Source: Paenibacillus sp. FSL R5-0912 (lineage in GTDB: Bacteria; Bacillota; Bacilli; Paenibacillales; Paenibacillaceae). From it: a stretch of DNA of 64,000 nt. Positions 3,927 to 21,341 of the stretch are shown here, one piece after another. The first letter of the stretch is position 1. Each line of letters begins with the position of its first letter. Made by a program: the position numbers and the translations under genes. The notes beneath the pieces are model-generated. The model was not told the origin of the DNA. It was given only the letters and a program-made list of their open reading frames with translations, and did no database searches. Where the stretch lies: NCBI RefSeq assembly GCF_000758605.1, contig NZ_CP009282.1, forward strand, positions 5,580,001-5,644,000, read 5' to 3'.

Positions 3927-3956
3927 ACAATACTATTGTTTAGGGATTGTTTTTTT
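3916..3956 (+). terminator. Rho-independent terminator of the LytTR/GHKL operon
   Basis: ACAATCCTTAGACAAT and its near-complement pair through a 16-bp stem with G-U wobbles and a short loop, followed by a run of seven T. The stop codon at 3924-3926 lies inside the left arm. Confidence 0.9.
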
Positions 3957-4049
3957 CGTTTCAGGGTACTTCGGATCTTCTCCCTCCTTCTTGCTTGTAT
4001 GATGAACCCAGATTTAAATTTCGAGCAGCAACAGGAGGAGGAAATAAGG

Positions 4050-6089
4050 ATGAAGAAGTTGATTGCAGCCGTATTGGCTTCGGTGTTAGTAATCCCCATG
4101 GCTCAGGCCTCGGCACAGGAGAAGGGGACCACCGTGGAAGACAAGGCCCGCGCGCTGGCTTCGGAGATCATCTCCAATTATGGGGTAAGCGGACTACAGT
4201 ATGCCATCAGGGATAAAGGTTCTATCACCCTGTCCGGGGGTGCCGGTGTGTACGATAAAGCCACTCAGGCACCGGTAACGAAGGATACGATGTTTGGGAT
4301 TGGCTCGGTCAGCAAAATGCATGTCTCTGCCGGGGCGATGATCCTGGCGGATTCCAAGGCTATTAATATCGACAAGCCCCTCACTACGTATTTACCGCAG
4401 TTTAAGATGGCCGATGCCAGATATAAGGACATTACACCGCGGATGCTAATGAATCATTCGTCAGGTCTTTACGGCAGCCACTATGGCAACAGCATGCTGC
4501 TGGATGACAACGACACACAGAATCATGATGAATTACTGTCAAGGCTGGAGTCCGAACATCTGAAATCCAATCCCGGAGAATATTCGGTCTATTGCAACGA
4601 TGGCTTCCAGCTGCTCGAGCTCATGATTGAGCAGGTGAGCGGATTAAGCTATTCCGAATTCCTGGACCGGTACCTAAGCAGTCCGCTGCAGTTAAGCTCG
4701 ACCCAAACGCCGCTCGATACGTTTGACAGACAGCAGCTGGCCAGAACCTATTTCCCGGGGCTGGAGCAGGCTCTGCCCGTTGAGAATGCCAACGTCATTG
4801 GAGCAGGTGGAATCTATTCCACGGCAGAAGAATTGACCGAGTTTGCTGAAGTGCTGATCGGAAACCGTACGGATATTTTATCCGAAGCCTCGGCCAAGGC
4901 TATGCAGGCGCCTGAATATAAGAATGGAATCTGGGTACCGGATGAACGAAATACCTTCAGCTATGGTCTGGGCTGGGATGCTGTGAGCCTGGCCCCGTTC
5001 AGCGATTACGGAATCACCGCACTAACCAAAGGCGGGGATACCATTATGTATCATGCTGCGCTAACTGCAATACCCGAATCCGATATTTCGATTGCTGTAC
5101 TCTCCTCCGGCGGGAGCTCGATCTTCAATACGATTTTCGCCTCGAATGTCCTGCTGGAGTACTTGAAGGATACCGGGAAGATTGACAAGCTCCTGCCGGC
5201 CCCAACCTTCGTGCCCCCGGTAAAAGCGGCCATGCCCGCTGAGCTACAATCCTATTCCGGATTATACGGTACAGTGGGCGCAACAACTGCTATAGCAGTT
5301 AAGGATGGAGAGCTTGACCTGCCTGCTCTGGAAGGCGGACTGATCCCCGCACAGAAATATATTTATACAGGCAACGGGCAATTTAAGAGCAGCGATGGCC
5401 GTTCCGCCGTAAGCTTCGATCCGCAGAAGAACGGCAAAACCTACCTAAAGCTTAGTGCCGAGTTGGATTTCCCCGGAGCCGGCCAGATGGTGATGGTAAC
5501 CTACGAATATCAGAAGCTGGAGTCCAATCCTCTAACCCCCGTGACGAAGCAGGCCTGGGAAAAGAGAAACGGGAAAAATTACTATGCTTTGGATGAGAAA
5601 ATCAATTCATTATTTTATCTGTCCCCTGCGATCCTAACGAAGAATATCGCTGTGGATGAGGGATATGCCTCGGGCACCCGGATTGTGGATGAGCACCAAG
5701 CTGTCAATGCGGCTGAAATACCGGTCATGAACGGAAGAGATGCGTTTGATTTGAACTTCTATACGAAGAATGAAGCGGAGTATTTAAGCATTGATGGCAA
5801 TGCTTATATCAGCGAAGATGCGGTTCAGCCTATCTATGGGGGCCGGTCATCAATCAGTACGGTATCTGCTAATGGTCAAGGGATATGGTTCAAGATCGGT
5901 GAGAAATCAGCCGGAAAAACAATGACTGTGACGGCTCCGGCAAGCGGCGGCTTCGCTGTCTACGATGCCGATGGAATGATCGTAAACTTCTCTGTGGTGA
6001 CCAAGAACCCTTCGGCAGTCTTGCCGCAAGTCGGTATGGTTGTCTTTGGCGGTCAAGCAGGAGATGTATTTAAGATTAATATGAAATGA
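4050..6089 (+). CDS. Secreted serine hydrolase, beta-lactamase/penicillin-binding-protein class C fold
   Basis: A 679-residue exported protein. Residues 1-22 are a Sec signal peptide ending in AQASAQ. The class C beta-lactamase-like domain spans about 30-390: the SxxK motif is Ser86-Val-Ser-Lys89 and the second motif is Tyr181-Cys-Asn183, so the catalytic machinery is present. The last 290 residues are a beta-rich extension without a family I can name. The frame is open further upstream, but the ATG at 4050 begins the signal peptide and is preceded by AGGAGGAG. Enzymes of this fold include D-amino-acid peptidases, esterases and amidases; the substrate cannot be told. A strong terminator separates it from the kinase upstream, so it probably has its own promoter. 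Confidence 0.85.
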   Translation: MKKLIAAVLASVLVIPMAQASAQEKGTTVEDKARALASEIISNYGVSGLQYAIRDKGSITLSGGAGVYDKATQAPVTKDTMFGIGSVSKMHVSAGAMILADSKAINIDKPLTTYLPQFKMADARYKDITPRMLMNHSSGLYGSHYGNSMLLDDNDTQNHDELLSRLESEHLKSNPGEYSVYCNDGFQLLELMIEQVSGLSYSEFLDRYLSSPLQLSSTQTPLDTFDRQQLARTYFPGLEQALPVENANVIGAGGIYSTAEELTEFAEVLIGNRTDILSEASAKAMQAPEYKNGIWVPDERNTFSYGLGWDAVSLAPFSDYGITALTKGGDTIMYHAALTAIPESDISIAVLSSGGSSIFNTIFASNVLLEYLKDTGKIDKLLPAPTFVPPVKAAMPAELQSYSGLYGTVGATTAIAVKDGELDLPALEGGLIPAQKYIYTGNGQFKSSDGRSAVSFDPQKNGKTYLKLSAELDFPGAGQMVMVTYEYQKLESNPLTPVTKQAWEKRNGKNYYALDEKINSLFYLSPAILTKNIAVDEGYASGTRIVDEHQAVNAAEIPVMNGRDAFDLNFYTKNEAEYLSIDGNAYISEDAVQPIYGGRSSISTVSANGQGIWFKIGEKSAGKTMTVTAPASGGFAVYDADGMIVNFSVVTKNPSAVLPQVGMVVFGGQAGDVFKINMK

Positions 6090-8143: not shown

Positions 8144-10261
8144 TTATTTACCCGCTTCGCCGGATTTCTCCGCCAGTCCGGCTACGATCTGATTCATCGG
8201 ATTCGTGAACAGGGCATACAGAATGGCAGCATTCTCCTGTTTACTTAGGGCTTCTCTGGACTTGAAGTCAACAGCGCCTTTGGCATCCGCCTTGATGTCC
8301 GGTCCGTATAATCCCAGAGCCACAGCCATCTTCACTGCCGGAACTGCCCATTTATCCGTATTCCCCGCCAGCTTCACATCCTGGAACAGTTTATCCGGGT
8401 ATTGTGCACTTAGCAGTCTCCATACCATGACCGCCGCCTCCTGGCGGGAGATGACCCGGTCAGGCTGGAATTCTCCGCCCGCTGTTCCCTCCACCATTCC
8501 GAGTTCTACAGCCATTTGTATATAGCCGGCATCCGGATGTCCCTGCAGATCAGGGAACGCCAGCTTGGTAGTCTTGCTCGCTTTGACACCGCTGCTCTCC
8601 AGCATCAGCCGCACATACTCGGCACGCGTGATTCCCGCCTCAGGCTGAAAGCTGAGCGCCGCATCATTCGGCAGATAGCCCAGCGACTGCAGCATCATAA
8701 CCGGGGTCGCATAAGGATGGCTTGCTGTGACATCGGAATAACCAACGCCGTCCGGCCCTTTCTGCTCATAGCCGTAAGGATTAAGGTACGGCTCTTTCAG
8801 ATAAGCTCCTTGTCCGCCCGGCGTCAATTCAAAGCCGGTAAATTTCTTGGTAAGCTCATCGATGAACAGATTATCATCTACCTGGCGCAGCTGGCGGGTG
8901 CCAAGGAAGGCGTCACTAATGGTAAGTGCACCCTCTTGCATAGCAACTGTAGAGACCAGGCTCTTGAGCCGGAGATCCGCATAGTATCCGGTGAACGCAT
9001 CCAGAGCTTCAGCGCTCAGCGGCTGGAAGGCGTCCAGCTTCGCCGGTGCGGCATATTGCGGGAAGAATGCCTGAATGAACGCCGGGTAGAACAGCTCCCG
9101 CAGTGCGCTCTGCTGATTATAGGCAATGAACACCCCGGTGTTCTGCTCCGGGATCAGGAACATATAAGTGCTGAAGCCGATTAAATCGCCTGCTTTGGTG
9201 ATAATCTTGGAGCTGCTGCCGGCACCGGGAAGCTGAATCGGTGCTTCGAAGCCGTAGGTGGTATTCGGCAGCAACGGGTGGATGGAGGAACGGTATTCCT
9301 CCATGGCATCTACGGTACTTGCAGCCAGAATGCGGTTATTCCCGGAAACGCCCCCATTCAGAAAAGCCGTCATGAACTTGCCGATATCATCCGCAGTAGA
9401 GAGCATCCCTCCTTGCGGCATAACAGTCGGAGTTACTGTATACAGATCAAGCGCCTTGCCGGTGGCATCATAGGCGGTAGCAAGCTCATCTTTCAGCTTG
9501 CCTTCCAGCAGGAAGCCGCTTGAATCCATATTCAGCGGGGCAAACACATGCTTCTCCAAGTAATCCTCATAGGGCTCGCCGCTGGCTTTTTCCACCACCA
9601 GACCGAGCAGCATTGAAGCGAAGTTGTCATACATGTAGGAAGTCCCCGGCTCTCGGACAACCGGCGGCATATTCCGCAGCACATAATCCTCGATCGACAC
9701 CTTGGTTTCGAAATCATCGTTGATATCTTCCGGCTGCGGGTCCTGAATCCGGAAGCCGGTGGTATGGGTCAGCAGATCCTCCACCGTTACCGGAACGCCG
9801 AAGGGATTGTCGAAGACAATAGGTCCGGTATAGACTTGAAAATCCGCTTTCAAATCGATTTTGCCTTGCTCTACCAGCTGCATGGCAGCAGCGGCAGTGA
9901 AGGTTTTGGATACCGAGGCCATGCGGAAGACCGTTTCATCCGGGTCTACCGCTGTTTTGGCAGCCTTGTCTGCGTAGCCGAAGCCTTCTTCAATCACCGT
10001 CTTGCCATCCTTGACCACAATGACAACCGCGCCGGCAAGCTGCGCTTTCACCTCATCCGAGCTGAAGAATTGCTTGAGGAATGCTGCGGCATTCTCCTTT
10101 GTTAGCGGCTTGGCTTGTCCGGCTACAGACGCCGGAGGTGCAGATACCGCAGGAGCGGCAGACGCTTGTACCGCCGGGGCCGCCAACGTTAGAATCAGGG
10201 CAGCAGCAAGCACTGTCCTCGTCCAAAAGGCCGAACGGTTACGCAATATAGACAACTTCAC
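8144..10261 (-). CDS. Surface-anchored serine hydrolase: beta-lactamase fold plus SLH repeats
   Basis: A 705-residue exported protein. The signal peptide ends near residue 36. The beta-lactamase-like domain spans about 55-410, with the SxxK nucleophile Ser116-Val-Ser-Lys119 and Tyr211-Asp212-Asn213. The C-terminal ~190 residues hold three S-layer-homology repeats (recognisable by ITRAEYVRLML, ISRQEAAVMVWRLL and LSKQENAAILYAL), which bind pyruvylated secondary wall polymers. The frame contains earlier GTG and ATG codons, but GGAG lies 8 bases before the GTG at 10261 and almost overlaps the others, so 10261 is the better start. It lies 79 bases downstream of the EPSP-synthase-like gene on the same strand with no clear terminator between, so partial co-transcription is possible. 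Confidence 0.85.
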   Translation of the reverse strand: MKLSILRNRSAFWTRTVLAAALILTLAAPAVQASAAPAVSAPPASVAGQAKPLTKENAAAFLKQFFSSDEVKAQLAGAVVIVVKDGKTVIEEGFGYADKAAKTAVDPDETVFRMASVSKTFTAAAAMQLVEQGKIDLKADFQVYTGPIVFDNPFGVPVTVEDLLTHTTGFRIQDPQPEDINDDFETKVSIEDYVLRNMPPVVREPGTSYMYDNFASMLLGLVVEKASGEPYEDYLEKHVFAPLNMDSSGFLLEGKLKDELATAYDATGKALDLYTVTPTVMPQGGMLSTADDIGKFMTAFLNGGVSGNNRILAASTVDAMEEYRSSIHPLLPNTTYGFEAPIQLPGAGSSSKIITKAGDLIGFSTYMFLIPEQNTGVFIAYNQQSALRELFYPAFIQAFFPQYAAPAKLDAFQPLSAEALDAFTGYYADLRLKSLVSTVAMQEGALTISDAFLGTRQLRQVDDNLFIDELTKKFTGFELTPGGQGAYLKEPYLNPYGYEQKGPDGVGYSDVTASHPYATPVMMLQSLGYLPNDAALSFQPEAGITRAEYVRLMLESSGVKASKTTKLAFPDLQGHPDAGYIQMAVELGMVEGTAGGEFQPDRVISRQEAAVMVWRLLSAQYPDKLFQDVKLAGNTDKWAVPAVKMAVALGLYGPDIKADAKGAVDFKSREALSKQENAAILYALFTNPMNQIVAGLAEKSGEAGK

Positions 10262-10340
10262 TAACATCACTCCATTTCCATTGAATTAACAGGCATAGTT
10301 GTTTCTACGCCATTTCATGGAAATGGGTTCAATTATTTCC

Positions 10341-11711
10341 CTACAATGGATGCAAAATATCAATATGCGCAAACTGTGAGAGATCCTCTACGAAGCCTGG
10401 ATAAGAAATATTGATACAGCCGCAGTTACGGATGATCGAAGGCTCCTCCAGGCTGCTGGCCAATACAGCGGCGGTCATGGCGATCCGGTGATCGCCGCAG
10501 CTGTCTACAATGGCAGGCGATAGACGCTGTCCGCCATGAATGACCATTTCGTCCTCACTGCAGGTAGTTTCCACGCCGAATGCTCTTAGCACCCCTGCAG
10601 TGGTCTGAATCCGGTTCGTATCCTTGTCTCTCAATTCCCGGCAGTTCCTGATCACAGAATCCCCTTCAGCGAATACCGATACCGCAGCGAGCAGAGGAAC
10701 CTCGTCTATCAAGCTCTGTATTTGCCCGTTGCCTTCAGCACAGACAGGGGACAAACGGGTTCCCGGCGTGCAACAGATATCTGCGATGGGCTCCCCGGAT
10801 ATCAGCTCCTGTTCCGCTTGCAGCGTCAAAGGAAGCCCCATCTCTGTGAGCAGACGGATGAATCCGCTCCGGGTTGGATTAACACCCACCCCCTTAATCA
10901 ACAGGCTGCCCTTGCGCTCCATTCCCCGGATAGCATAGGCAGCCAGCAGAAAAGCCGCTGAGGACAGATCCCCCGGAACCCTTACATCTTTGGCGGAAAA
11001 GGCACTTCCTCCCTTCAGGAAGGTAACATCATTATCAGAATGAATATCTATGCCGAAATACTGCATCAGGCGTTCGGTGTGATCCCGGCTTTGACAGTTT
11101 TGCCGGTAACATGTGATTCCGTCCGCGTATAATCCCGCGAACAGCAGGGCGGACTTTTCCTGTGCACTGAATACGGTGGCTTCCATTTCTATGGGGGACA
11201 AGGGTGATGCCCCCTGAATCCGCAGAGGCAGACAGCCCTTCACCCCAAGATATTCAATCACAGCCCCCATGTCTGTAAGCGGCTGAACAACCCAGTCCAT
11301 CGGTCTTGCCGAGAGCAGTGAGTTTCCCCCGAGTTCCGCTGCAAAGGACTGTCCTGCCAGGACGGACAACATCAACCGGGCCGATGTGGCCGTATTCCCG
11401 ACCTCAAGTCTGCCCGCCGGTGCCTGCAAGCCCCGCAGCCCTCTTCCATTCACAGACAGATCATCCCCATTCCATGCAAACGTTACACCTAATTGGCGGA
11501 GAATCGCGATACAGCTCTGAGTGTCTCGGGAACGCAGCACATTATACACCGTGGCTTGGCCTTCAGCGATAGCATTCAGGACGATCGCCCGCTGGGAAAT
11601 TGATTTGTCTCCGGGAACCGAATCGAATTGGAAGGAACCCAACTCCTGCTTCGCCTTAATCCGCAAATCACATTTGGCCGGTAGCCCGACCCTGCTTCGT
11701 CCCAATTCCAA
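10341..11711 (-). CDS. EPSP-synthase-like enolpyruvyl transferase with altered active site
   Basis: A 456-residue member of the AroA/MurA fold. AroA landmarks are clear: PGDKSISQRA (Lys36, Arg41, matching E. coli Lys22 and Arg27), GNTATSAR, SARPM (Arg136, the Arg124 equivalent), SAQEKSALL, an Asp336 matching Asp313, and GDHRIAM (Arg409). Several key positions differ: Ala108 replaces the Gly96 equivalent; the usual KE(S/T)DR motif reads KDTNR (Asp364 and Asn366 for Glu341 and Asp343); and Ile435 replaces the Lys before SYP (Lys411 equivalent). Positions are aligned by eye. The family moves enolpyruvyl from PEP to shikimate-3-phosphate, but these changes and the neighbours suggest another substrate or lost activity. 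The TTG start at 11711 has AGGTGAT 5 bases upstream and overlaps the FrhB-like gene by 44 bases. Confidence 0.8.
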   Translation of the reverse strand: MELGRSRVGLPAKCDLRIKAKQELGSFQFDSVPGDKSISQRAIVLNAIAEGQATVYNVLRSRDTQSCIAILRQLGVTFAWNGDDLSVNGRGLRGLQAPAGRLEVGNTATSARLMLSVLAGQSFAAELGGNSLLSARPMDWVVQPLTDMGAVIEYLGVKGCLPLRIQGASPLSPIEMEATVFSAQEKSALLFAGLYADGITCYRQNCQSRDHTERLMQYFGIDIHSDNDVTFLKGGSAFSAKDVRVPGDLSSAAFLLAAYAIRGMERKGSLLIKGVGVNPTRSGFIRLLTEMGLPLTLQAEQELISGEPIADICCTPGTRLSPVCAEGNGQIQSLIDEVPLLAAVSVFAEGDSVIRNCRELRDKDTNRIQTTAGVLRAFGVETTCSEDEMVIHGGQRLSPAIVDSCGDHRIAMTAAVLASSLEEPSIIRNCGCINISYPGFVEDLSQFAHIDILHPL

Positions 11712-12906
11712 TTCTGATCACCTCGTCATCCGAGAGTATTTGCGAGTAATCCATATCTCTTCCGGGAGCCAGCGGAATCCTCCGGTCGCCCATTGCTGCA
11801 TAGCTGCGGTACCGCTGCCGTTTCCGCTCCAGTCCAAGGTTATTCTCAAAGGTGTAATCGTACAGCTTGACCGCGTTCCGGCGCACCGCAAGCTCAAGCA
11901 GGTCAGCTCCTGTCTTCGTTCGCACCATTACCGTGGAAGAGGCTTTGGCAGATATCCCTTCCCTGCTGGAATCAAAAATATTAGGATCTCCATCCGAAAT
12001 CGAAATATCAGCAATGCCTGACCACCAGTCCGGACAAGCAAGACAGCGAAAGGTTTTAAACTTTTTGAATTCCTCCACCAGCCGGTAAAAGGGCAGATAA
12101 TGCTCCTGCCCCTGACGGGTCCTGACCATGAACTGTCCCGGATATTCTCCTTCCCGGTATCGCATCAAAACTACGTCAGCCAATTCGATCCCCAAGATCT
12201 CCGTAATCAGATGCTCGGTCCCCCCCAGTGAAGTGTTGGAGGCGCATCCAAGCTCAATCGTGAACGCCACTTTGTCTGCCAATACAGTGGACGGCGAGTG
12301 TTCCGGCAGATTTAGCAGCTTATGGATGCCTTGAATCTGGCAAGGTACGCCTATAATGCCGATCTTGTCATATCTGCGATCCTGCAGCAGATCCAGATTG
12401 GGGGTGATACAGTAGCTGGTCTGGGCACATTCGATAATCCGGTCCACTGAATCGGCAAGGTAGGCCTTCGGCACCCAGGGACGCTCCTTATCTCTTCCCA
12501 CAACAATCACCGCGTCAGCAAGCTTCTCCTCCAGCGCGGTAACCGCCAGGATTGTCCCTGCCCCGCCGGCTGCCGCCCGCCCGAGAATCTCCGGGTCTGC
12601 CGCCGACAATTGACAGGTAGACAAGTAGATGCCGGTCCAGCGTTCAAGCTCTGAACGGTTGCGGCCGAAGATGCGCCGCTCGGATTCCATAACGCCTGTA
12701 TCATAGCCCGGGCACACCTCCGAGCAGAGATTACAGCTTCCGCAGGTGTCGGCCGCCTGGCTCTCCAGACCCTGAAAGACCGGGAGCGAGATGGAATCTC
12801 CGTTCATCGCAAGCAGACCTTGGGGACACACTGCAGCGCACAATCCGCAAGAGGCGCATAGCGATAGATCTAGAATCTCTTCCTTGAGCGTTATAAAAGA
12901 TGTCAT
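11668..12906 (-). CDS. FrhB/FdhB-family iron-sulfur flavoprotein
   Basis: A 412-residue cytoplasmic protein of the coenzyme F420 hydrogenase/dehydrogenase beta-subunit family. Two ferredoxin-type motifs lie at the N-terminus: Cys17-x2-Cys20-x2-Cys23-x3-Cys27-Pro and Cys55-x2-Cys58-x2-Cys61-x3-Cys65-Pro, enough for two [4Fe-4S] clusters. The core carries the family signatures GVPCQIQGIHKL and RCLACPDWWSGIADISISDGDP, which in relatives bind flavin and a further cluster. Members transfer electrons between ferredoxin or F420 and a substrate, and some occur in polysaccharide and cofactor clusters as reductases. F420 synthesis is not indicated here, so a ferredoxin-linked redox step on the cluster's metabolite is the likelier role (inference). 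Confidence 0.82.
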   Translation of the reverse strand: MTSFITLKEEILDLSLCASCGLCAAVCPQGLLAMNGDSISLPVFQGLESQAADTCGSCNLCSEVCPGYDTGVMESERRIFGRNRSELERWTGIYLSTCQLSAADPEILGRAAAGGAGTILAVTALEEKLADAVIVVGRDKERPWVPKAYLADSVDRIIECAQTSYCITPNLDLLQDRRYDKIGIIGVPCQIQGIHKLLNLPEHSPSTVLADKVAFTIELGCASNTSLGGTEHLITEILGIELADVVLMRYREGEYPGQFMVRTRQGQEHYLPFYRLVEEFKKFKTFRCLACPDWWSGIADISISDGDPNIFDSSREGISAKASSTVMVRTKTGADLLELAVRRNAVKLYDYTFENNLGLERKRQRYRSYAAMGDRRIPLAPGRDMDYSQILSDDEVIRIGIGTKQGRATGQM

Positions 12907-12924: not shown

Positions 12925-14103
12925 TTATAATCTCACGCCGCTCAGCGCGGAATAGACTTCTCTGGTTCTGTCAGCAATGGGGGTCCAGTCATACCGGAGC
13001 AGCACCTCCCGCCGGGCTGCTTCTGCAAGCAGGCTCCCCTCATCAGGCTCACGGAGCAACTGTAGAATCCGGCCTGCAAGCATGCCAGAATCCCCGGATA
13101 TGCTGGTGAGTCCGGTCCGCCCATGCTCGACAATCTCGGCCAGTCCCCCTTCTTCAGACACAATTACCGGTGTACCGCTGCCCATCGCTTCCAGTGCCAC
13201 AATGCCGAAGGGCTCATATAAGCTGGGAAAGACACAGACATCGGCAATTTGGAACAGATAGCTTTTCTCCAGGCTGTCCACGAAGCCGGTGAAGTGAATG
13301 CTTGTACCCAGCTCAGCCGCACTGGCCTCAAGCTCGGCGAACATCGGTCCCCGGCCTGCGATAATACAGGTGCAGTGCGGGAATTCCCGCACTACCTCAT
13401 GCATGCTTTGCAGCAGCACCTGTACTCCTTTTTCCTTCACTAGTCTTCCAATGAACAAAATAATCTTTCCGCCGTTCTGCGCATACTGCTCTCGTCTGAA
13501 GGAATGTGCGGTAATCAGCTCCAGTGAACGGAGATCAATGCCGTTCGGAATAATCACCGTCCTTGACTCCTCAAGACCATGCACAGTGCAGACCTCCCGC
13601 TGCATATGCAGGCTGCATACAATAACCTTGTCCGATGTTGAGACCAGTTCATTCTCAAGGGCATGAATCGTGTGCTGCTGAGGCGTGAATACTCCCTGGT
13701 TCCGTCCAAACTCCGTAGCATGGATTGTTGTAACAAGCGGTAACGACAGACGTTGACGGAGTATAAGGGCTGCGTAGCCGACCAGCCAATCATGCGCGTG
13801 AATAAGATCGAGGCTTACGTTCCCGATTAGCCGGGATACAACGTAATCTACAATCGCCAGATTGAACTCAAGCACCCAATCCTCGAAATCGGTCAAGTTC
13901 TCATAAGAATTCACACGGTGCACGTATACGCCGTTCTCCACTTCCAGAACGGGCCGCCCGGGAGCGCTGTTGGTGATTACATGAACCTCGGTCTGCCCGC
14001 TTGCCAAATGCCTGGACAATTCATAGACATGCGGGGCCATCCCTCCGATCACCATAGGCGGATACTCCCAGGACAGGATTAAGACAGATGCGCTGGACTT
14101 CAT
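12925..14103 (-). CDS. GT4-family glycosyltransferase, glycogen-synthase-like N-terminus
   Basis: A 392-residue GT-B glycosyltransferase. The N-terminal domain opens with SWEYPPMVIGGMAPHVYELSRHLA, the glycine-rich acceptor-side loop seen in bacterial glycogen synthases and related GT4 enzymes. The C-terminal domain carries GRLVKEKGVQVLL and the nucleotide-sugar E-x7-E type motif EPFGIVALEAMGSGTPVI. No transmembrane segment or signal is present, so it acts in the cytoplasm. An AGGAGGGG site precedes the ATG at 14103. Between a CGTase-like gene and an FrhB-like gene, it may start or extend a glucosyl chain on a small acceptor; donor and acceptor are not predictable. Confidence 0.85.
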   Translation of the reverse strand: MKSSASVLILSWEYPPMVIGGMAPHVYELSRHLASGQTEVHVITNSAPGRPVLEVENGVYVHRVNSYENLTDFEDWVLEFNLAIVDYVVSRLIGNVSLDLIHAHDWLVGYAALILRQRLSLPLVTTIHATEFGRNQGVFTPQQHTIHALENELVSTSDKVIVCSLHMQREVCTVHGLEESRTVIIPNGIDLRSLELITAHSFRREQYAQNGGKIILFIGRLVKEKGVQVLLQSMHEVVREFPHCTCIIAGRGPMFAELEASAAELGTSIHFTGFVDSLEKSYLFQIADVCVFPSLYEPFGIVALEAMGSGTPVIVSEEGGLAEIVEHGRTGLTSISGDSGMLAGRILQLLREPDEGSLLAEAARREVLLRYDWTPIADRTREVYSALSGVRL

Positions 14104-14124: not shown

Positions 14125-14559
14125 TCAATGTGTAGATAGTGAATATCCTGTGAAGAATTCCCACCATGTATTTTGCTCCAGCAGCGGAGGTGAAGAATGG
14201 TCTCTCTGGAAGGAAAGCCAGTCGGAATACTCAAGGCTGCCGTCATCACAAACAAATAACACATTAGATCTTAAAATTGGTACAAACGTTTGCACTTTTT
14301 TAATAATCCCTAAATCAGCATAATAGTAACGGTCTAGCGGCCTGGGAATCCGCATCTCCAGCGTTTGCCCGAGCGGCCTGTACACTGGGAACAGGAACTG
14401 GGCAAATTTGTTATCGGATGAGAGGGTGGTTAGCCGGACAGCCTGCTGCAGCTCAAGCCAGCCGCTTTTAAAATGCCAGGCAATCAGCCGCCTTGTCTCT
14501 TCGTCCAGTACCGTTCGGAAGATCAGACGCGTCCCGTCAAACTGCAATCTCTCATCCAT
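14125..14559 (-). CDS. Small protein of unknown function, cluster-specific
   Basis: A 144-residue soluble protein with no signal or membrane segment and no family I recognise. It is rich in aromatic residues and Arg, with an LQFDGTRLIFRTVLDEETRR start, a central PVYRPLGQTLEMRIPRP stretch and a Trp-rich tail (NTWWEFF). An in-frame ATG lies 9 bases upstream, but AAGGAG sits directly against it and exactly 9 bases before the ATG at 14559, so 14559 is the better start. It overlaps the CGTase-like gene by 8 bases, and the glycosyltransferase begins about 20 bases downstream. Tight coupling suggests it works with one of these two, for example as an accessory or carbohydrate-binding subunit (inference). 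Confidence 0.7.
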   Translation of the reverse strand: MDERLQFDGTRLIFRTVLDEETRRLIAWHFKSGWLELQQAVRLTTLSSDNKFAQFLFPVYRPLGQTLEMRIPRPLDRYYYADLGIIKKVQTFVPILRSNVLFVCDDGSLEYSDWLSFQRDHSSPPLLEQNTWWEFFTGYSLSTH

Positions 14560-16612
14560 ACGCAGCATCTCCTTCGGATAACAGATTAGCTTCCTGGTGA
14601 CATCCCTGCCACTCCACTATCATTTCCGATACACCCTCCGCAGGCGTATGAATGTAATGAGCCTCCCCTTGCTCCATGCGCACAATACCAGAGTCACCCC
14701 TTAGCAGAAAGTTGAACTCGATCCGGCAGTCTGCGGGCAGACTGATATCGCAATACCAGCTTGGATACCGGTAGACAATATAATTGTAAAACGGCCCTGC
14801 GGCCCTCTCTGCTTGCCATTCTCCAAGCTCATACACGTTTCCCGTCACATAGACCCGAGTATCATATTCGGTATGCAGATTCTTGACTACCAGCCTTACC
14901 GTGACCAGCGTTCCTGTCCACACCGTCAGTTCTTCCGCCAGCTGGAACTCGCTCTCCCCGCCTGTCAGACCTTGTACATAATGTGTTCCCGCCGGGACCG
15001 CCGGAATCTTGGCTACGATCTTCTCCGGTTGCCATGAGATTACATCAGCCTCATAACCGCCAACCCTCAGACGGCCGTTGTCCCCTAAATGTCTGCCCCG
15101 GATAATAAGCTCGCTTCCCGGCGCCGCTGCTTTGGGATAGAAGTGCAACGCATCCAGCTCCTCCAGATCTGACTCATGAACATAGATATAAGCAGACTGA
15201 GGTTCCAGTATCACATTTTGTATGTCCCCTTCGGCTCCGGCAACTGCCTGACGGTCTGGATAAATGTCCTTAAGCAGGCTGGAGTAAGCGCCTTGCGGCA
15301 GGGAAGTAACCAGCGGAGGCAGTGTATGTCCGCTTTCACCCTGATTAATTAGAATAAGTGCAACATCCTTCTTGTAGCTGCGCTCGAATACGAGCACTCC
15401 CGAATTCAAATACAGCAGCTTCGTATTACCGTAACCAATCGCAAGATTACATGCTCTTAAACGATTAAGCTGAGCCACTAACCGGTAGGCCGTAGTCTCC
15501 CTGCTGAAGGAGCTCATCATAGCACGATTGCCGGGATCATCCCCGCCGCTCATGTACTGCTCGGTTCCATAGTACACCACAGGCAGGCCTGCGGAAGTCA
15601 ACAGCAGCACAAGCGCCAAATCCGTAAGCCAAGGATCAGAATCCCGGGTAAACCGGCTCATATCATGATTATCCAGAAAAATAAGCTGGTCATTCAAATG
15701 CTTATAGCTGCCGGAGGATTCGCATAGCATTTCAGCGAAAGCACCGAAGCCCTGCCGCCCATGAAAGGCCTCGCGGATCGCATGGGTGAACATAAAATGC
15801 AGCAGACTCATCCCGCTCCCATTGGCAAAAGCTGCATTGTCCTGTGTGTGGCCATGTGCTTCAAGAAACCACTCCCCGAACAGATAGGCCGGTTTCCTGG
15901 CATGGATGAAGCCGCTCAAGGAGGTTAGCCAGCCTGGGGGAATATGTTTGGCCGCATCGATCCTCACACCGTCCACCCCCAGATCCAGCCAGAAGGCAAT
16001 CCCTTCCCGCAAAAGCTCATCCACTTGCGGGTTCATCTGATCCAATCCGGCAAGGTCATACAAATTCCGGTACTGCGAATCTTCGGCATCCCGAAAAGCA
16101 GTGCCGCCATTATGCAGAAATACACGCTCCAGGTCTCCCGAATAAGTAGCTACCAGCTGGCCCGCGCGGTATATTGCGCCATTCTCCATATAATCCGGCC
16201 GCAGTTCCAGTGCAGGGGACGTATGATTCGGTGTAAAATCAATAATTACCTTAAGTCCGTGCTCATGCGCTGTGCTCAGCAGGGCGCTGAATGTATCCAT
16301 AGAACCAAAATAAGGATTGGGCTTCAGGAAGTCTCTGGGCCAATATCCATGATAGGAAGCCGTGCCTTCTTCATCGTCCGTGCACACATGAATGTTCTCT
16401 GCCGGCTGGGAAATCAGGATCGCGCTGACCCCCATACCGGTAAGATATCCGTCCTGAATCCTGGCAATAATTCCTGCCCAGTCGCCGCCGAGATATTTTC
16501 GCAGATTGCCTGCTCCAGAGCTGAAGAGCTCCGCTCGCGGCCGGCTGGCAGGGTTGCCTTCGCAGAACCGGTCGGTGACAATCTGATAGATGCATTCGCC
16601 CGGATTCAGCAT
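14552..16612 (-). CDS. Cyclodextrin glucanotransferase-like GH13 enzyme lacking a signal peptide
   Basis: A 686-residue protein that follows secreted CGTases almost end to end. Domains A/B cover about residues 5-400: nucleophile Asp219 (GVRIDAAKH), acid/base Glu247 (FGEW) and Asp317 (LDNHD) are all present, and Tyr185 matches the central aromatic residue (195 in Bacillus enzymes) that favours cyclisation. Domain C follows, then an IPT/TIG-like domain D near 480-570 and a C-terminal CBM20 starch-binding domain near 575-675. Unlike secreted CGTases, it starts at the mature-like sequence CIYQIVTDRF with no signal peptide, so it should act inside the cell. Family activity is transglycosylation of alpha-1,4-glucans. 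The gene begins 2 bases after the upstream stop with no good ribosome binding site, so it is probably translationally coupled. Confidence 0.88.
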   Translation of the reverse strand: MLNPGECIYQIVTDRFCEGNPASRPRAELFSSGAGNLRKYLGGDWAGIIARIQDGYLTGMGVSAILISQPAENIHVCTDDEEGTASYHGYWPRDFLKPNPYFGSMDTFSALLSTAHEHGLKVIIDFTPNHTSPALELRPDYMENGAIYRAGQLVATYSGDLERVFLHNGGTAFRDAEDSQYRNLYDLAGLDQMNPQVDELLREGIAFWLDLGVDGVRIDAAKHIPPGWLTSLSGFIHARKPAYLFGEWFLEAHGHTQDNAAFANGSGMSLLHFMFTHAIREAFHGRQGFGAFAEMLCESSGSYKHLNDQLIFLDNHDMSRFTRDSDPWLTDLALVLLLTSAGLPVVYYGTEQYMSGGDDPGNRAMMSSFSRETTAYRLVAQLNRLRACNLAIGYGNTKLLYLNSGVLVFERSYKKDVALILINQGESGHTLPPLVTSLPQGAYSSLLKDIYPDRQAVAGAEGDIQNVILEPQSAYIYVHESDLEELDALHFYPKAAAPGSELIIRGRHLGDNGRLRVGGYEADVISWQPEKIVAKIPAVPAGTHYVQGLTGGESEFQLAEELTVWTGTLVTVRLVVKNLHTEYDTRVYVTGNVYELGEWQAERAAGPFYNYIVYRYPSWYCDISLPADCRIEFNFLLRGDSGIVRMEQGEAHYIHTPAEGVSEMIVEWQGCHQEANLLSEGDAAYG

Positions 16613-16614
16613 GG

Positions 16615-17754
16615 TTACTTACCAGAAGCGGCCAGAATAGCATTCGCTTCCTCCAAGATAAGATTCACCGCTGCTTCTGCTTGTTCGGTAAAGAGGACAT
16701 GAATATGAAATTTCTGTTCCAGTTCAAGCTTGCGGGCCAATCGTTGTTCAAGGGGATAGATCTCATAATGCCCATAAGAGGTTTCAAGCTTATCCGGCAG
16801 CAGCAGGGCAATCGGCCGCCTGGAGTAGATTCTTAAGATTTCAATCGCATCAAGTATAGCGCTGTCATCATCATAACCGGCAATCAGCAGAACATACTCC
16901 GGATCAAATGTCCGCAGCATCGCGTATCGCAGAGAATTGAAAGCAATATTCATTGTGGGGAGAATGGAGCTTTGCCCCGCCATAACGATCCAATCGCTGC
17001 CACTCTGCTGGGCTTGATGAATAACAGTATCGATATAATACGGGTACTGCTCCAACGGACGGTGCGCCAGGAATTTGAAGATATCCCCTTCAGGCTGCCC
17101 GAACAGGAATCCGGTTGGCTCTGTGATAAAGGCTGTAGCCGGAATGCCCAGCGCTCCGAACTGCCGATAGAGATTCATCTGCACGGTAAACTTGCCAATG
17201 CACCCCCGTGTAGCAAAAATACCCACTCTCTTAATCGTTCTGGGGCGGGCGAACATCAAGGCTTCCTTCTCAAACTGTCCCAGATAGCACTCAATATCTG
17301 TTCCGCCCGTGCTGTAACGCTCATCCATCTCCTGAAAGAGCTGCTCCTGAGGACTGTGAACCACATCGATTTTTAATTGCTGCTCTGCCATCCAGTTCAG
17401 GGTATCCCTGTCATAAATTTCATGAACACTGACTACCCTTAAGCCCCGGCCAGAAGCATACAAGACCAATTTCCGCCATAATTCCGCCAGATCATGCTCA
17501 GCGAATACACCTTTGTTCCCCCCAAAAGTAGTGCCGGGATCATTGAGAATCAGAGTGTCCGCATCCTTCAGACCAGCTTCCATAGACGAATGAATAAGAA
17601 TTCCCGAATGCTTCCCGTCCACCTGCTCTCCGGCATCTTGTCCGTCTTCCTGCACGAAGTCGATCACCGACACAATGTCCACGCTCAACAGGTCACGAAA
17701 GCGAAGCAGACCCTGCGTGATTTTATTGAAGGGATACAGGACAACCCTTTCCAT
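16615..17754 (-). CDS. DUF1611-like P-loop protein, copy 2
   Basis: A 379-residue cytoplasmic protein, paralogous to its upstream neighbour. The N-terminal Rossmann-like half (FRDLLSVDIVSVIDF, ADTLILNDPGTTFGGN, LRVVSVHEI) and the C-terminal P-loop half resemble DUF1611 family proteins. The loop ATRGCIGKFT at residues 181-190 matches the family's GTDCxVGKMT nucleotide-binding loop, and AGQSSILP matches its EGQGSLxHP motif. DUF1611 includes DgcN, an N-acyltransferase of D-glutamate metabolism, but most members are uncharacterised, so only nucleotide (or CoA) binding is predicted. An in-frame ATG lies upstream, but GGAGG lies 8 bases before the ATG at 17754, and the paralogue starts at the same residue. 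Confidence 0.72.
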   Translation of the reverse strand: MERVVLYPFNKITQGLLRFRDLLSVDIVSVIDFVQEDGQDAGEQVDGKHSGILIHSSMEAGLKDADTLILNDPGTTFGGNKGVFAEHDLAELWRKLVLYASGRGLRVVSVHEIYDRDTLNWMAEQQLKIDVVHSPQEQLFQEMDERYSTGGTDIECYLGQFEKEALMFARPRTIKRVGIFATRGCIGKFTVQMNLYRQFGALGIPATAFITEPTGFLFGQPEGDIFKFLAHRPLEQYPYYIDTVIHQAQQSGSDWIVMAGQSSILPTMNIAFNSLRYAMLRTFDPEYVLLIAGYDDDSAILDAIEILRIYSRRPIALLLPDKLETSYGHYEIYPLEQRLARKLELEQKFHIHVLFTEQAEAAVNLILEEANAILAASGK

Positions 17755-17774
17755 GTTCACCGCCTCCGCCCGGA

Positions 17775-18917
17775 TCATAATTTGACAGTCTTCTTATAGC
17801 CAGCCAGCTTGGCAGCCAATCTGCCAATGTCCAGCACCGATTCAACATTCTCGGCTGCAAACCGGCTGCGGATCTCTTCCTTGCGCTGTTCTATTTCTTC
17901 CGGGGTCTTCGAGATGTATTCTCCGAAATCAACTTCGTATTTATCCGGAATCAGAATGGCAAACGGCCGGCTGCTATTGCCGTAAACGCGAAGAATATCG
18001 AGGCTGTCTCTAATCTGCTCATCATCATCGTAGCCTGCGATCAGGATCGTCAAATCGGGCTGTAAAGCGCGCAAATAGGAGACCTTGGTCGCTGCAATCA
18101 CGAAATTCTCATTCGGAAGCAAGGAGCCTTGACCTGACAGCAGGACGTAATCACAGCCTTCCCTCTCTGCTTCCCGGACTGCCGCGTGAATGTAATACGG
18201 ATATTGGCTCAGCGGCTTATTGGCAATAAATTTCATTATATCGCCGCCCGGTTGATTGAAGAGTGCGGCTGTGGGCTCGGTTATAATCGCCTGGACCTTC
18301 TCTCCTGCCTGCTTAAGCGCCCGGAATAATGACATTTGGGCAGTGAATTTCCCGAGGCATCCTCTTGTTGCGAATATACCTACCTTGCATATATTGCGGT
18401 TATAAGCGGTTATTTGTACGTCCATTTCAAAATAAGATAAGTAAGTGGCTATTTCATCTCCAGGGGAAGGAAAAACATATTCTGTATGAAGCCGGCGCTG
18501 CAGACTTGCGGGGATTTGAGGCAGAATTTCAATCATGATTCCATTCTCGAGCAGCCATTCCAGGGTCGGACGGTCAATGATTTCGTGCACACTGATGATC
18601 CGCAGCTTGTGCTCATGGGCAGAGACAACGAGCATTCTCCACAGCTGGCTGAGCTTATGCTCACCGTACACACCCTCGTTATTTCCGAAGGAAGTTCCTG
18701 GATCATTCAGAATAAGAGTATCCGCTAAGCCAAATACCTCTTCAAAATTGTCCGTGACCGGAATGCCCGCCGCACGCCCTTCCACCAGCTCTGCTGCATC
18801 TTTGCCCTTATGCAGGACAAAATCAACAACCGCTCTTACTGTAAAATCCGTTAGATCCCTGAACCTGATGATCCCTTGCGTAATCTTATTGAAGGGATAC
18901 AACACTACATTGTCCAT
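17775..18917 (-). CDS. DUF1611-like P-loop protein, copy 1 (first gene of the seven-gene operon)
   Basis: A 380-residue protein, the same length and layout as copy 2. It starts MDNVVLYPFNKITQG, and its P-loop ATRGCLGKFT spans residues 183-192. SGQGSLLPNE and a PDLTILIAGYDDDEQ segment complete the DUF1611-like C-terminal half. Divergence from copy 2 is spread along the sequence, so the duplication is old and a heteromeric pair is possible (inference). The start at 18917 has GGGAGG 9 bases upstream, and an in-frame ATG at 18959 has none. A LacI-type operator candidate lies 51-64 bases upstream of the start codon, where it could overlap the promoter. Confidence 0.72.
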   Translation of the reverse strand: MDNVVLYPFNKITQGIIRFRDLTDFTVRAVVDFVLHKGKDAAELVEGRAAGIPVTDNFEEVFGLADTLILNDPGTSFGNNEGVYGEHKLSQLWRMLVVSAHEHKLRIISVHEIIDRPTLEWLLENGIMIEILPQIPASLQRRLHTEYVFPSPGDEIATYLSYFEMDVQITAYNRNICKVGIFATRGCLGKFTAQMSLFRALKQAGEKVQAIITEPTAALFNQPGGDIMKFIANKPLSQYPYYIHAAVREAEREGCDYVLLSGQGSLLPNENFVIAATKVSYLRALQPDLTILIAGYDDDEQIRDSLDILRVYGNSSRPFAILIPDKYEVDFGEYISKTPEEIEQRKEEIRSRFAAENVESVLDIGRLAAKLAGYKKTVKL

Positions 18918-18967
18918 ACATAACCGCCTCCCAATAATAGAGTAAAGAATAGACAACAATCGGTAGA

Positions 18968-18981: not shown

Positions 18982-19116
18982 CTGATACTACAATATTTTA
19001 CATATTATATCAACAACAAGAAATAAAAGGTTTATTATGACACATCACATCCAGGATTGACGACTGATCCAGCTAATGTTAATCTTTAGGAAATCAACAG
19101 ACAGGAGATTGGTGCG

Positions 19117-20028
19117 TTGAAAAAAACGACTATGAAGGACATCGCCATCCGTGCTAACGTATCCGTTGCCACCGTAAGCTATGTGCTGAATCGTGTGGAT
19201 AATCAGACCATTCCTGAGAAGACGCGCCGCCAGATTATGGAACTGGCTAAAGAGCTCCGCTATATTCCAAACTTAGCAGCCCGCTCACTGGCAAATCAAA
19301 AAACCGGTCTGATAGGTGTATTGGTCCACAAATCCAAGTCATTGCCCTACTGGAAGCTGCATGCCCAGCTCGCCTTCATTCATGCTTTGGAGCAGCGGCT
19401 TACAGCGGCCGGTTATCATACGCTCCTCTATTCTCTGGATACCGACACCCCTTCGCTGGATATTATCGTTGAACGCAAGCTGGAAGCCGTGTTCCTCATT
19501 GATGCACAAGATAATTCCTTCTACTCGATCTCCAGACACTTTGTGGAAGGCATCCCCCTGATTCTGATCGACAGCATGATAGAGGATAAGCTTTTCAAGC
19601 AGGTGGTGTTTAATTTCCGATCAGCGCTTGAAAAAGCTCTTCCCGAAGATCTGTCGCAGGTCTGCTTGATTTTGGAGGGCTTTAATAATTCGCTCCTCAC
19701 CCGCTATATCCGCAGCAGTGTTCCTCTGGCTGAGGATGCCGTATTTGAGATCCATGAACTTCAGGATTTGCTTCCGGCCATGGAGCACCACCGCTTCAAG
19801 CAGGCAATTGTGATCAATGAATTCATTGGCAGCTACGTGGAGAAGTCTGGAAAGTTCGAGCATCTTACGGTCATCTGCACAAGTAATTCCCCGGAAATGC
19901 TGGGTGAAGATGTGAAGAAGATTGTTTTTCAAGGAGATAAAGCGGAGGTTGCCTATGAACTCATGCAAGAGCTATTGCACCATCCGGACTACTCCGAGCA
20001 AGTGAATAACTGTTATTATGTCGACTAA
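19117..20028 (+). CDS. LacI/GalR-family transcriptional regulator
   Basis: A 303-residue repressor-type protein, shorter than the usual ~330. The N-terminal helix-turn-helix MKDIAIRANVSVATVSYVLN and hinge helix (LRYIPNLAARSLA) are clear. The effector domain (about 60-300) is a shortened periplasmic-binding-protein fold in which the usual sugar-binding residues cannot be traced. The TTG start has AGGAG 9 bases upstream. It sits between two copies of CTTAANCGNTTAAG, one before the divergent seven-gene operon and one before the MFS gene that follows by 47 bases, so it most likely represses both (inference). Confidence 0.85.
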   Translation: MKKTTMKDIAIRANVSVATVSYVLNRVDNQTIPEKTRRQIMELAKELRYIPNLAARSLANQKTGLIGVLVHKSKSLPYWKLHAQLAFIHALEQRLTAAGYHTLLYSLDTDTPSLDIIVERKLEAVFLIDAQDNSFYSISRHFVEGIPLILIDSMIEDKLFKQVVFNFRSALEKALPEDLSQVCLILEGFNNSLLTRYIRSSVPLAEDAVFEIHELQDLLPAMEHHRFKQAIVINEFIGSYVEKSGKFEHLTVICTSNSPEMLGEDVKKIVFQGDKAEVAYELMQELLHHPDYSEQVNNCYYVD

Positions 20029-20075: not shown

Positions 20076-21341
20076 ATGCCAGAACCCGTTATAGCCAGCC
20101 AGGCGGCCCCTGCGGTACACTCCTATCCAAAACTGTGGGCCAACAAAAAATTCATGCTGCTGCTCTGCTCCTTTTCCATTTCCCTGTTCGGCAATACCTT
20201 TCACAGTATCGCTCTCAGTCTCTGGGTGCTTCAGACCACCGGCAGTGCCAAGCTGGTGGCTGTACTGACGGTCATTAATCTGTTGCTCAGCTCGCTGCTC
20301 GGATCCATTGGAGGAACGTTTGCAGATCGGATCAACCGCAGAACAATCATGCTGGTCACGGATCTGATCAGCTGCATACTGGTAGTAACGCTCGCCCTGG
20401 TCCTCTCTCTCTCTTCCGCTTCCTTCATTATCGTAGCCCTGCTTACTGCGTTGACTACTGTATCTGCCCTGTTCCAGTCCCCCGCCTACCAGTCCTCCAT
20501 TATCACCGTGGTTGGCAAAGAGCATGTCCAGCAAGCCGTAGGCATGCTTAACCTGTCAGAGAATATTTGCCGGACAGTTGGCTTTTCCATGGGCGGAATC
20601 TTTGTAGCGAGCTTCGGTGCGGCGGATGCCATTTTATTCGATGGAGTCACGTTTCTGGTCTCCTTCCTGCTGGTTCTTGCTGTCCGTTCCCTTCCCGTGC
20701 CGACACGCGTGAATTCCGAGCCCGGGCAGAAGAGGAATTTTATTCAGGACCTTGGGGAGGGCATACGGTATATCTGGAAATTCCCTTTTGCCAAGGCCGT
20801 CATCATTATGCTTCCGACGCTCACTCTATTCTTCATGCCCTCGCTGATGCTGACCCAGGTTATGGCCGTCAACGTATGGAAGGCAAGCCCGTTCCAGTTC
20901 GGACTCATGGAAGCTTGTATCCCGCTCGGCTATATGATCGGCTCAGGCATAATTATGATCCTGGGCTCCAGAATCAGACGGAGAGGATTATTTATTATGA
21001 GCGGCCTGTTCTGTCTGGGCCCGATGTACATCCTGTTATCATTCATCCCTTCTGCGGCCACAGCCATTCCTATCATTCTCCTGATTGGATTCATGTTCTC
21101 GTTCTGCACGCTGCTGATCAATATCATCCTCAGGCTGGAAATATCGGAAGAGATTCAGGGCCGGGTCTTCGGAGTACTTGGGTCGATTATGAGTGTCGCT
21201 CCGTCGATCGGTCTAACTCTTGTCTCCTACCTCTCGGATTATTTCAGCCCGGGTCCTGTCATGGGTTCCATTGGTCTGCTGCTGTTCCTGTTCGCCTTAT
21301 ATGCTTCCACCAAGCTCAAGATCATTCGGGATTATAAATAA
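20076..21341 (+). CDS. MFS transporter, EntS-like drug/siderophore exporter family
   Basis: A 421-residue integral membrane protein with about 12 hydrophobic segments. The loop between segments 2 and 3 carries the MFS-type GGTFADRINRRTIM motif, and the sequence best resembles the MFS_3/EntS group, whose known members export siderophores or drugs. GAAAGGAG lies 7 bases before the ATG. It follows the LacI-type regulator closely and has its own operator-like palindrome, linking it to the divergent glycosyl/enolpyruvyl cluster, so it is a candidate exporter of that product. It converges with and overlaps the end of the regulator at 21322 by 20 bases. Confidence 0.85.
   Translation: MPEPVIASQAAPAVHSYPKLWANKKFMLLLCSFSISLFGNTFHSIALSLWVLQTTGSAKLVAVLTVINLLLSSLLGSIGGTFADRINRRTIMLVTDLISCILVVTLALVLSLSSASFIIVALLTALTTVSALFQSPAYQSSIITVVGKEHVQQAVGMLNLSENICRTVGFSMGGIFVASFGAADAILFDGVTFLVSFLLVLAVRSLPVPTRVNSEPGQKRNFIQDLGEGIRYIWKFPFAKAVIIMLPTLTLFFMPSLMLTQVMAVNVWKASPFQFGLMEACIPLGYMIGSGIIMILGSRIRRRGLFIMSGLFCLGPMYILLSFIPSAATAIPIILLIGFMFSFCTLLINIILRLEISEEIQGRVFGVLGSIMSVAPSIGLTLVSYLSDYFSPGPVMGSIGLLLFLFALYASTKLKIIRDYK

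Follow-up and report, generated by a model that had tools for sequence, protein, structure and literature searches.

AroA2, a diverged class II EPSP-synthase-family protein encoded in a conserved FrhB–DUF1611 operon of some Paenibacillaceae, as a candidate dedicated enolpyruvyl transferase

The stretch of DNA analysed here, referred to as the window, comprises 64,000 nucleotides of Paenibacillus sp. FSL R5-0912 (contig NZ_CP009282.1, positions 5,580,001 to 5,644,000). A preliminary description had pointed out an EPSP-synthase-like open reading frame at positions 10341–11711. Our results bear this out and add that the gene, which we call aroA2, lies on the minus strand (Table 1). It is the last gene of a conserved operon in every genome that carries it, with the gene order DUF1611b–DUF1611a–(optional genes)–frhB–aroA2. 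The frhB and aroA2 genes overlap by 38–44 bases across the carriers, and by 44 bases in the window. In the genus to which the window belongs, the optional genes code for a GT4 glycosyltransferase and for a 147-aa protein; in most cases a GH13 amylase gene, which is missing in L067, precedes them. The closest relatives share the divergent LacI regulator, with an MFS exporter gene beyond it. An MFS gene also flanks the cluster of P. herberti, whereas P. fonticola and G243 have a MATE exporter gene after aroA2; an exporter of one type or the other lies next to the cluster in most carriers. Family-profile searches found no other shikimate-pathway or chorismate gene in the aroA2 cluster. Two large serine hydrolases resembling AmpH and class C beta-lactamases are encoded beside this region (window positions 3936–6089 and 8144–10270); in the relatives they lie outside the conserved cluster.

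Table 1. Features of the aroA2 region, in window coordinates.
Feature	Position	Strand	Remarks
aroA2	10341–11711	−	456-aa product, a diverged class II member of the EPSP synthase family; TTG start
Ile435 codon (E. coli Lys411)	10407–10409	−	Class II enzymes ordinarily have Ile/Val
Asn366 codon (E. coli Asp343)	10614–10616	−	Ordinary class II state
Asp364 codon (E. coli Glu341, general acid/base)	10620–10622	−	Asp throughout the orthologs; 27/27 class II enzymes have Glu
Ala108 codon (E. coli Gly96)	11388–11390	−	Ala throughout the orthologs; 27/27 class II enzymes have Gly
Shine–Dalgarno site of aroA2 (GAGGTGA)	11718–11724	−	Within the frhB 3' end; kept in 8/8 orthologs
FrhB-like protein, 412 aa	11668–12906	−	Two [4Fe-4S] motifs and FrhB domain; overlaps aroA2
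GT4-family glycosyltransferase	12925–14103	−	Optional operon part
147-aa protein	14125–14568	−	Without family match; optional operon part
Alpha-amylase-family (GH13) protein	14552–16612	−	TIG and CBM20 domains; optional operon part
DUF1611-family P-loop protein, copy a	16615–17778	−	
DUF1611-family P-loop protein, copy b	17775–18917	−	Reading frame opens at 18959, ATG at 18917
Promoter-like site upstream of operon	18985–19013	−	Consensus match only
LacI-family regulator, divergent	19117–20028	+	Kept with the cluster in the closest relatives
MFS exporter-type protein	20076–21341	+	Kept beside the cluster in several relatives

AroA2 matches the Pfam family EPSP_synthase (PF00275) over its full length (E = 1.7e-88; 297.6 bits, cut-off 22.8). 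It scores 336.3 bits against TIGR01356, the curated aroA equivalog profile, and thereby passes the cut-off of 287.25, whereas it reaches only 41 bits against the curated murA profile (cut-off 392.7). An identity as MurA was therefore rejected. The TTG start of aroA2 is credible, because all eight orthologs conserve the ribosome-binding site and have a start codon (ATG, GTG or TTG) at the corresponding position. Structural modelling, which the preliminary description had proposed, yielded a class II EPSP synthase fold. The predicted model (mean pLDDT 85.5, pTM 0.86; built from seven sequences) has class II EPSP synthases as its best structure matches, with TM values of 0.88/0.92 for 3slh; its loop 360–364, which contains Asp364, has a pLDDT below 50. 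Phylogenetically, the AroA2 family is monophyletic (100/100) and splits off with class II, away from class I, on a stem of 2.41 changes per site, in a tree whose bootstrap is not fully settled.

The genome encodes five PF00275 proteins. Three were named MurA-like by reading their sequences and neighbours (the atp operon, ftsA/ftsZ and fba/rho), not by family search. A class I-type AroA adjoins the shikimate kinase gene aroK (L009:7232–8524), and an AroA of this type is present in all Paenibacillaceae genomes examined, including those without any other EPSP-synthase-like protein. Since this AroA is universal and aroA2 occurs in only 8 of the 295 genomes of the family, aroA2 is an extra, patchy paralog. 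The separate canonical aroA that the preliminary description had proposed to look for thus exists, and its view that the gene in the window is not a housekeeping aroA holds.

In all 15 genomes compared, the universal AroA (at the locus above and at L130–L143) itself carries S23N, T97A and Y200V at positions of the S3P site, a change to the active site that is arguably more striking than that of AroA2; in several genomes, it is the sole EPSP-synthase-like protein. A third type of EPSP synthase in some Paenibacillaceae (L070:7042–8397 and L071:7495–9024) adjoins aroC and a LysR-type gene; in this type, His replaces both Lys340 and Asn336, Ala replaces Asn94 and Gln replaces Ser197. Moreover, G031 has an EPSP-synthase paralog (L072:7347–8627) near genes for a TPP enzyme, a class V aminotransferase, an ATP-grasp protein and an iPGM-like protein, a neighbourhood that resembles a phosphonate-type cluster.

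For the active site of AroA2, AroA of E. coli K-12 (locus L128), a class I enzyme, served as the residue reference. The alignment confirms all four substitutions that had been noticed before (Gly96 to Ala108, Glu341 to Asp364, Asp343 to Asn366 and Lys411 to Ile435), as well as the reported retention of Lys22, Arg27, Arg124, Asp313 and Arg386; Ser23, Ser169, Gln171, Lys340, Arg344 and His385 are also kept. It adds three further changes, of which S170A and N336E are ordinary class II states and V339D is family-specific. The seven intact orthologs all share Ala108, Asp364 and Asn366, and have either Ile or Val at position 435. This recurrence across seven orthologs indicates that the substitutions are not the result of chance or sequencing error. 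All S3P-binding residues are retained. Within the AroA catalytic set K22/R124/D313/E341/R344/H385/R386, only E341 is altered, being Asp in every AroA2 member. Glu341 is the general acid/base in the classical EPSP synthase (PMC12256929).

According to the preliminary description, the four substitutions together suggested a changed substrate or mechanism. Only part of this stands after comparison with 27 class II sequences, which were the best-scoring matches from a Bacillota-type phylum sample and hence represent the nearest class II enzymes to AroA2, not a random draw. Position 343 is Asn in 17 of the 27, and position 411 is Ile or Val in 26. D343N and K411I therefore carry little meaning, since they are the normal class II state and appear odd only against a class I reference. 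Conversely, Gly96 and Glu341 are invariant in all 27 class II sequences, while Ala and Asp take their places in 7/7 intact AroA2 members, so that G96A and E341D remain distinctive. With two of its four positions ordinary in class II, the set as a whole was rejected as a mechanism signature. Likewise, Ala at position 96 had been regarded as a feature of glyphosate-insensitive class II enzymes. It is not a general class II trait, as all 27 sampled sequences have Gly; it is known from the CP4 EPSP synthase, where it is tied to glyphosate insensitivity (PMC8983318).

Judged from the alignments, the real signature of AroA2 is G96A, E341D and V339D plus 16 other family-specific positions, 19 in total, which are invariant in the AroA2 family and differ in at least 90% of class II. 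Clustering of these 19 positions near ligand residues, by sequence distance, was not significant (P = 0.35–0.54). The substitutions are real, yet they are no proof of a new substrate. Because the S3P residues are all kept, a changed substrate is suggested mainly by the genome context and the long stem, and not by the active site.

The genomes with a full-length DUF1611 pair are exactly the eight genomes with aroA2. The dN/dS ratios of aroA2 (0.17 and 0.19) indicate purifying selection. In Paenibacillus sp. HW567, an 11-base tandem duplication splits aroA2 (L013:10001–11382) but leaves the other operon genes open; aroA2 would thus be dispensable in HW567, provided that the assembly is correct. 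A search for related loci returned four of the same type, all from Paenibacillus, plus one distant locus. In 398 phylum genomes, in 398 class genomes and on plasmids, the DUF1611 pair did not turn up beyond the genus; a scan of 398 phylum genomes likewise gave no AroA2-type protein from beyond the family.

The FrhB-like protein is the only PF04432 member in the genome, and its two four-cysteine [4Fe-4S] motifs (C17/20/23/27 and C55/58/61/65) are both invariant. Its best matches are F420-hydrogenase beta subunits, and HCAR (5dqr) is also a match. A profile search of the genome for CofG, taken as the sign of an F420-making host, gave no match over the cut-off. F420 is therefore unlikely as the partner of this protein, and F420 dependence was rejected. 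For the predicted model of DUF1611 copy a (pLDDT 86), the structure matches are 2obn, 2g0t and 7xrj, the last being the N-acetyltransferase DgcN. In other Paenibacillaceae (L112–L115), proteins of 586–614 aa are fusions of subtilase and DUF1611-type P-loop domains; these fusions resemble peptide-maturation systems.

The strict linkage, the coupling to frhB, the adjacent exporters and the lack of other shikimate genes argue for a dedicated pathway in which AroA2 performs an enolpyruvyl transfer. On balance we think it probable, though far from assured, that a class II EPSP synthase was recruited as a dedicated enolpyruvyl transferase for a specialised metabolite of some Paenibacillaceae. The gene would have arisen by duplication or acquisition before a dedicated small-molecule pathway took it over. 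AroA2, presumably an active enzyme, would most likely move the enolpyruvyl group of PEP onto a hydroxyl of a phosphorylated, shikimate-3-phosphate-like acceptor. It would use the addition-elimination route of its family, with Asp364 taking over the acid/base work of Glu341. The retained S3P site suggests that the acceptor is a phosphorylated shikimate-like compound, or S3P itself; acceptor or product would probably differ from those of EPSP formation. The changed PEP side could tune the chemistry or give inhibitor insensitivity. In the presumed order of steps, reduction or another modification of the AroA2 product by the FrhB-like Fe-S flavoprotein, whose gene is translationally coupled to aroA2, would come first; activation or conjugation by the DUF1611 pair of P-loop proteins would follow, and the resulting compound, probably a secreted specialised metabolite, would leave the cell through an MFS or MATE pump. 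Several findings count against a dedicated transferase: the S3P site is kept and the protein scores above the aroA equivalog cut-off, the family-specific changes are unclustered, and aroA2 is broken in HW567.

Possibly, the four genes for the DUF1611 pair, the FrhB-type protein and AroA2 make an exported metabolite of a new class via enolpyruvyl transfer to a new acceptor, followed by a ferredoxin-type reduction to a lactyl ether. This would reproduce the logic of MurA and MurB with the folds of AroA and FrhB, but we consider so specific a scheme unlikely.

An alternative explanation might be that the acceptor is unchanged, which is suggested by the complete S3P site together with the score above the aroA equivalog cut-off. 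AroA2 would then form ordinary EPSP from S3P and PEP, and boost the EPSP/chorismate supply for the product of the cluster. Consistent with this, most PEP ligands are kept as well, and Asp in place of Glu preserves the carboxylate. However, such an auxiliary EPSP synthase would be surprising in a cluster without any other shikimate or chorismate gene, and it fits poorly with the long stem branch and with the change of both the acid/base residue and Gly96 in every AroA2 member and in none of the 27 class II sequences. We regard it as possible but rather unlikely.

Self-resistance seems quite unlikely. Here, the product of the cluster would be a PEP-site antimetabolite that inhibits EPSP synthase, with AroA2 as the insensitive duplicate of the target. 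In favour of this, both G96A and E341D affect the PEP side whereas the S3P side is unaltered, and an exporter adjoins the cluster. Ala at the place of Gly96 renders CP4 glyphosate-insensitive (PMC8983318), and 1mi4 is a glyphosate-insensitive G96A enzyme of E. coli. Yet, beyond the FrhB and DUF1611 proteins, no enzyme that would build a backbone is recognisable in the core cluster, and the divergence of AroA2 (stem 2.41) far exceeds what a target-site change needs. Literature searches on EPSP-synthase paralogs in clusters, DUF1611 and self-resistance, which left most subscription journals outside, returned no self-resistance EPSP synthase in a biosynthetic cluster and nothing on the aroA2 cluster.

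The changed general acid/base residue and the one ortholog frameshifted by the 11-base duplication might also point to a non-catalytic or degenerate paralog, either a binding or regulatory partner or a decaying gene. This is improbable in view of the low dN/dS, the invariance of nearly all other catalytic residues, and the conserved start, ribosome site and frhB coupling. Finally, that aroA2 is simply the housekeeping aroA, for which the family assignment is the one argument, has next to no chance and was rejected by genome content, since a separate AroA, beside shikimate kinase, occurs in this and every Paenibacillaceae genome examined and aroA2 is missing from most relatives.

To our knowledge, almost the only known enolpyruvyl transferases of the AroA fold are AroA, the target of glyphosate, and MurA, the target of fosfomycin. 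If AroA2 was indeed recruited as a dedicated transferase, an AroA with its S3P site kept and its PEP side changed in every member could illustrate how a catalyst moves to new chemistry. Alternatively, if self-resistance were true, the cluster would reveal a natural EPSP-synthase inhibitor plus its resistance gene. AroA2 belongs to a known superfamily, while its cluster, which is small and conserved, is without description in the literature searched; the strains have the named relatives P. helianthi, P. herberti and P. fonticola.

Among known systems, AroA2 is most like the class II EPSP synthases of B. halodurans (3rmt), S. pneumoniae (1rf4), C. burnetii (3slh) and Agrobacterium CP4 (2gg4), with which it shares the fold, a full-length alignment and about 31–38% identity. 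The motifs PGDKS, SAQ, SRDHTER, LIDE and DHR are common to both, as is the lack of Lys at position 411. In contrast, AroA2 has GNTAT for GNSGT, DKD for VKE (E341D, V339D) and SAQE where class II has SAQ plus a hydrophobic residue, and its gene lies in an operon with FrhB and DUF1611 genes. CP4 shares the Ala at the Gly96 position (Ala100; PMC8983318). Nevertheless, it is less similar to AroA2 than other class II enzymes are (198 bits versus 276 for 3rmt). We know of no FrhB/DUF1611 operon for CP4.

The partners of AroA2 have more distant counterparts. DUF1611 copy a shares about 15% identity with 2obn, 2g0t and DgcN, and only its P-loop part matches Pfam. DgcN, a D-glutamate N-acetyltransferase, is the only DUF1611 member with known chemistry, and its function is not transferable to the pair described here, the modelled resemblance being one of fold only. 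MurA and MurB, which combine enolpyruvyl transfer with flavin reduction to a lactyl ether, resemble the pair of AroA2 and the FrhB-like protein in idea only: AroA2 is AroA-like (336 versus 41 bits), and the FrhB-like protein is not of the MurB family. Although the latter differs from BciB and HCAR in best matching F420-hydrogenase beta subunits, all three are FAD/Fe-S proteins of the FrhB family outside methanogens, and BciB uses ferredoxin to reduce a vinyl group (PMC4836224).
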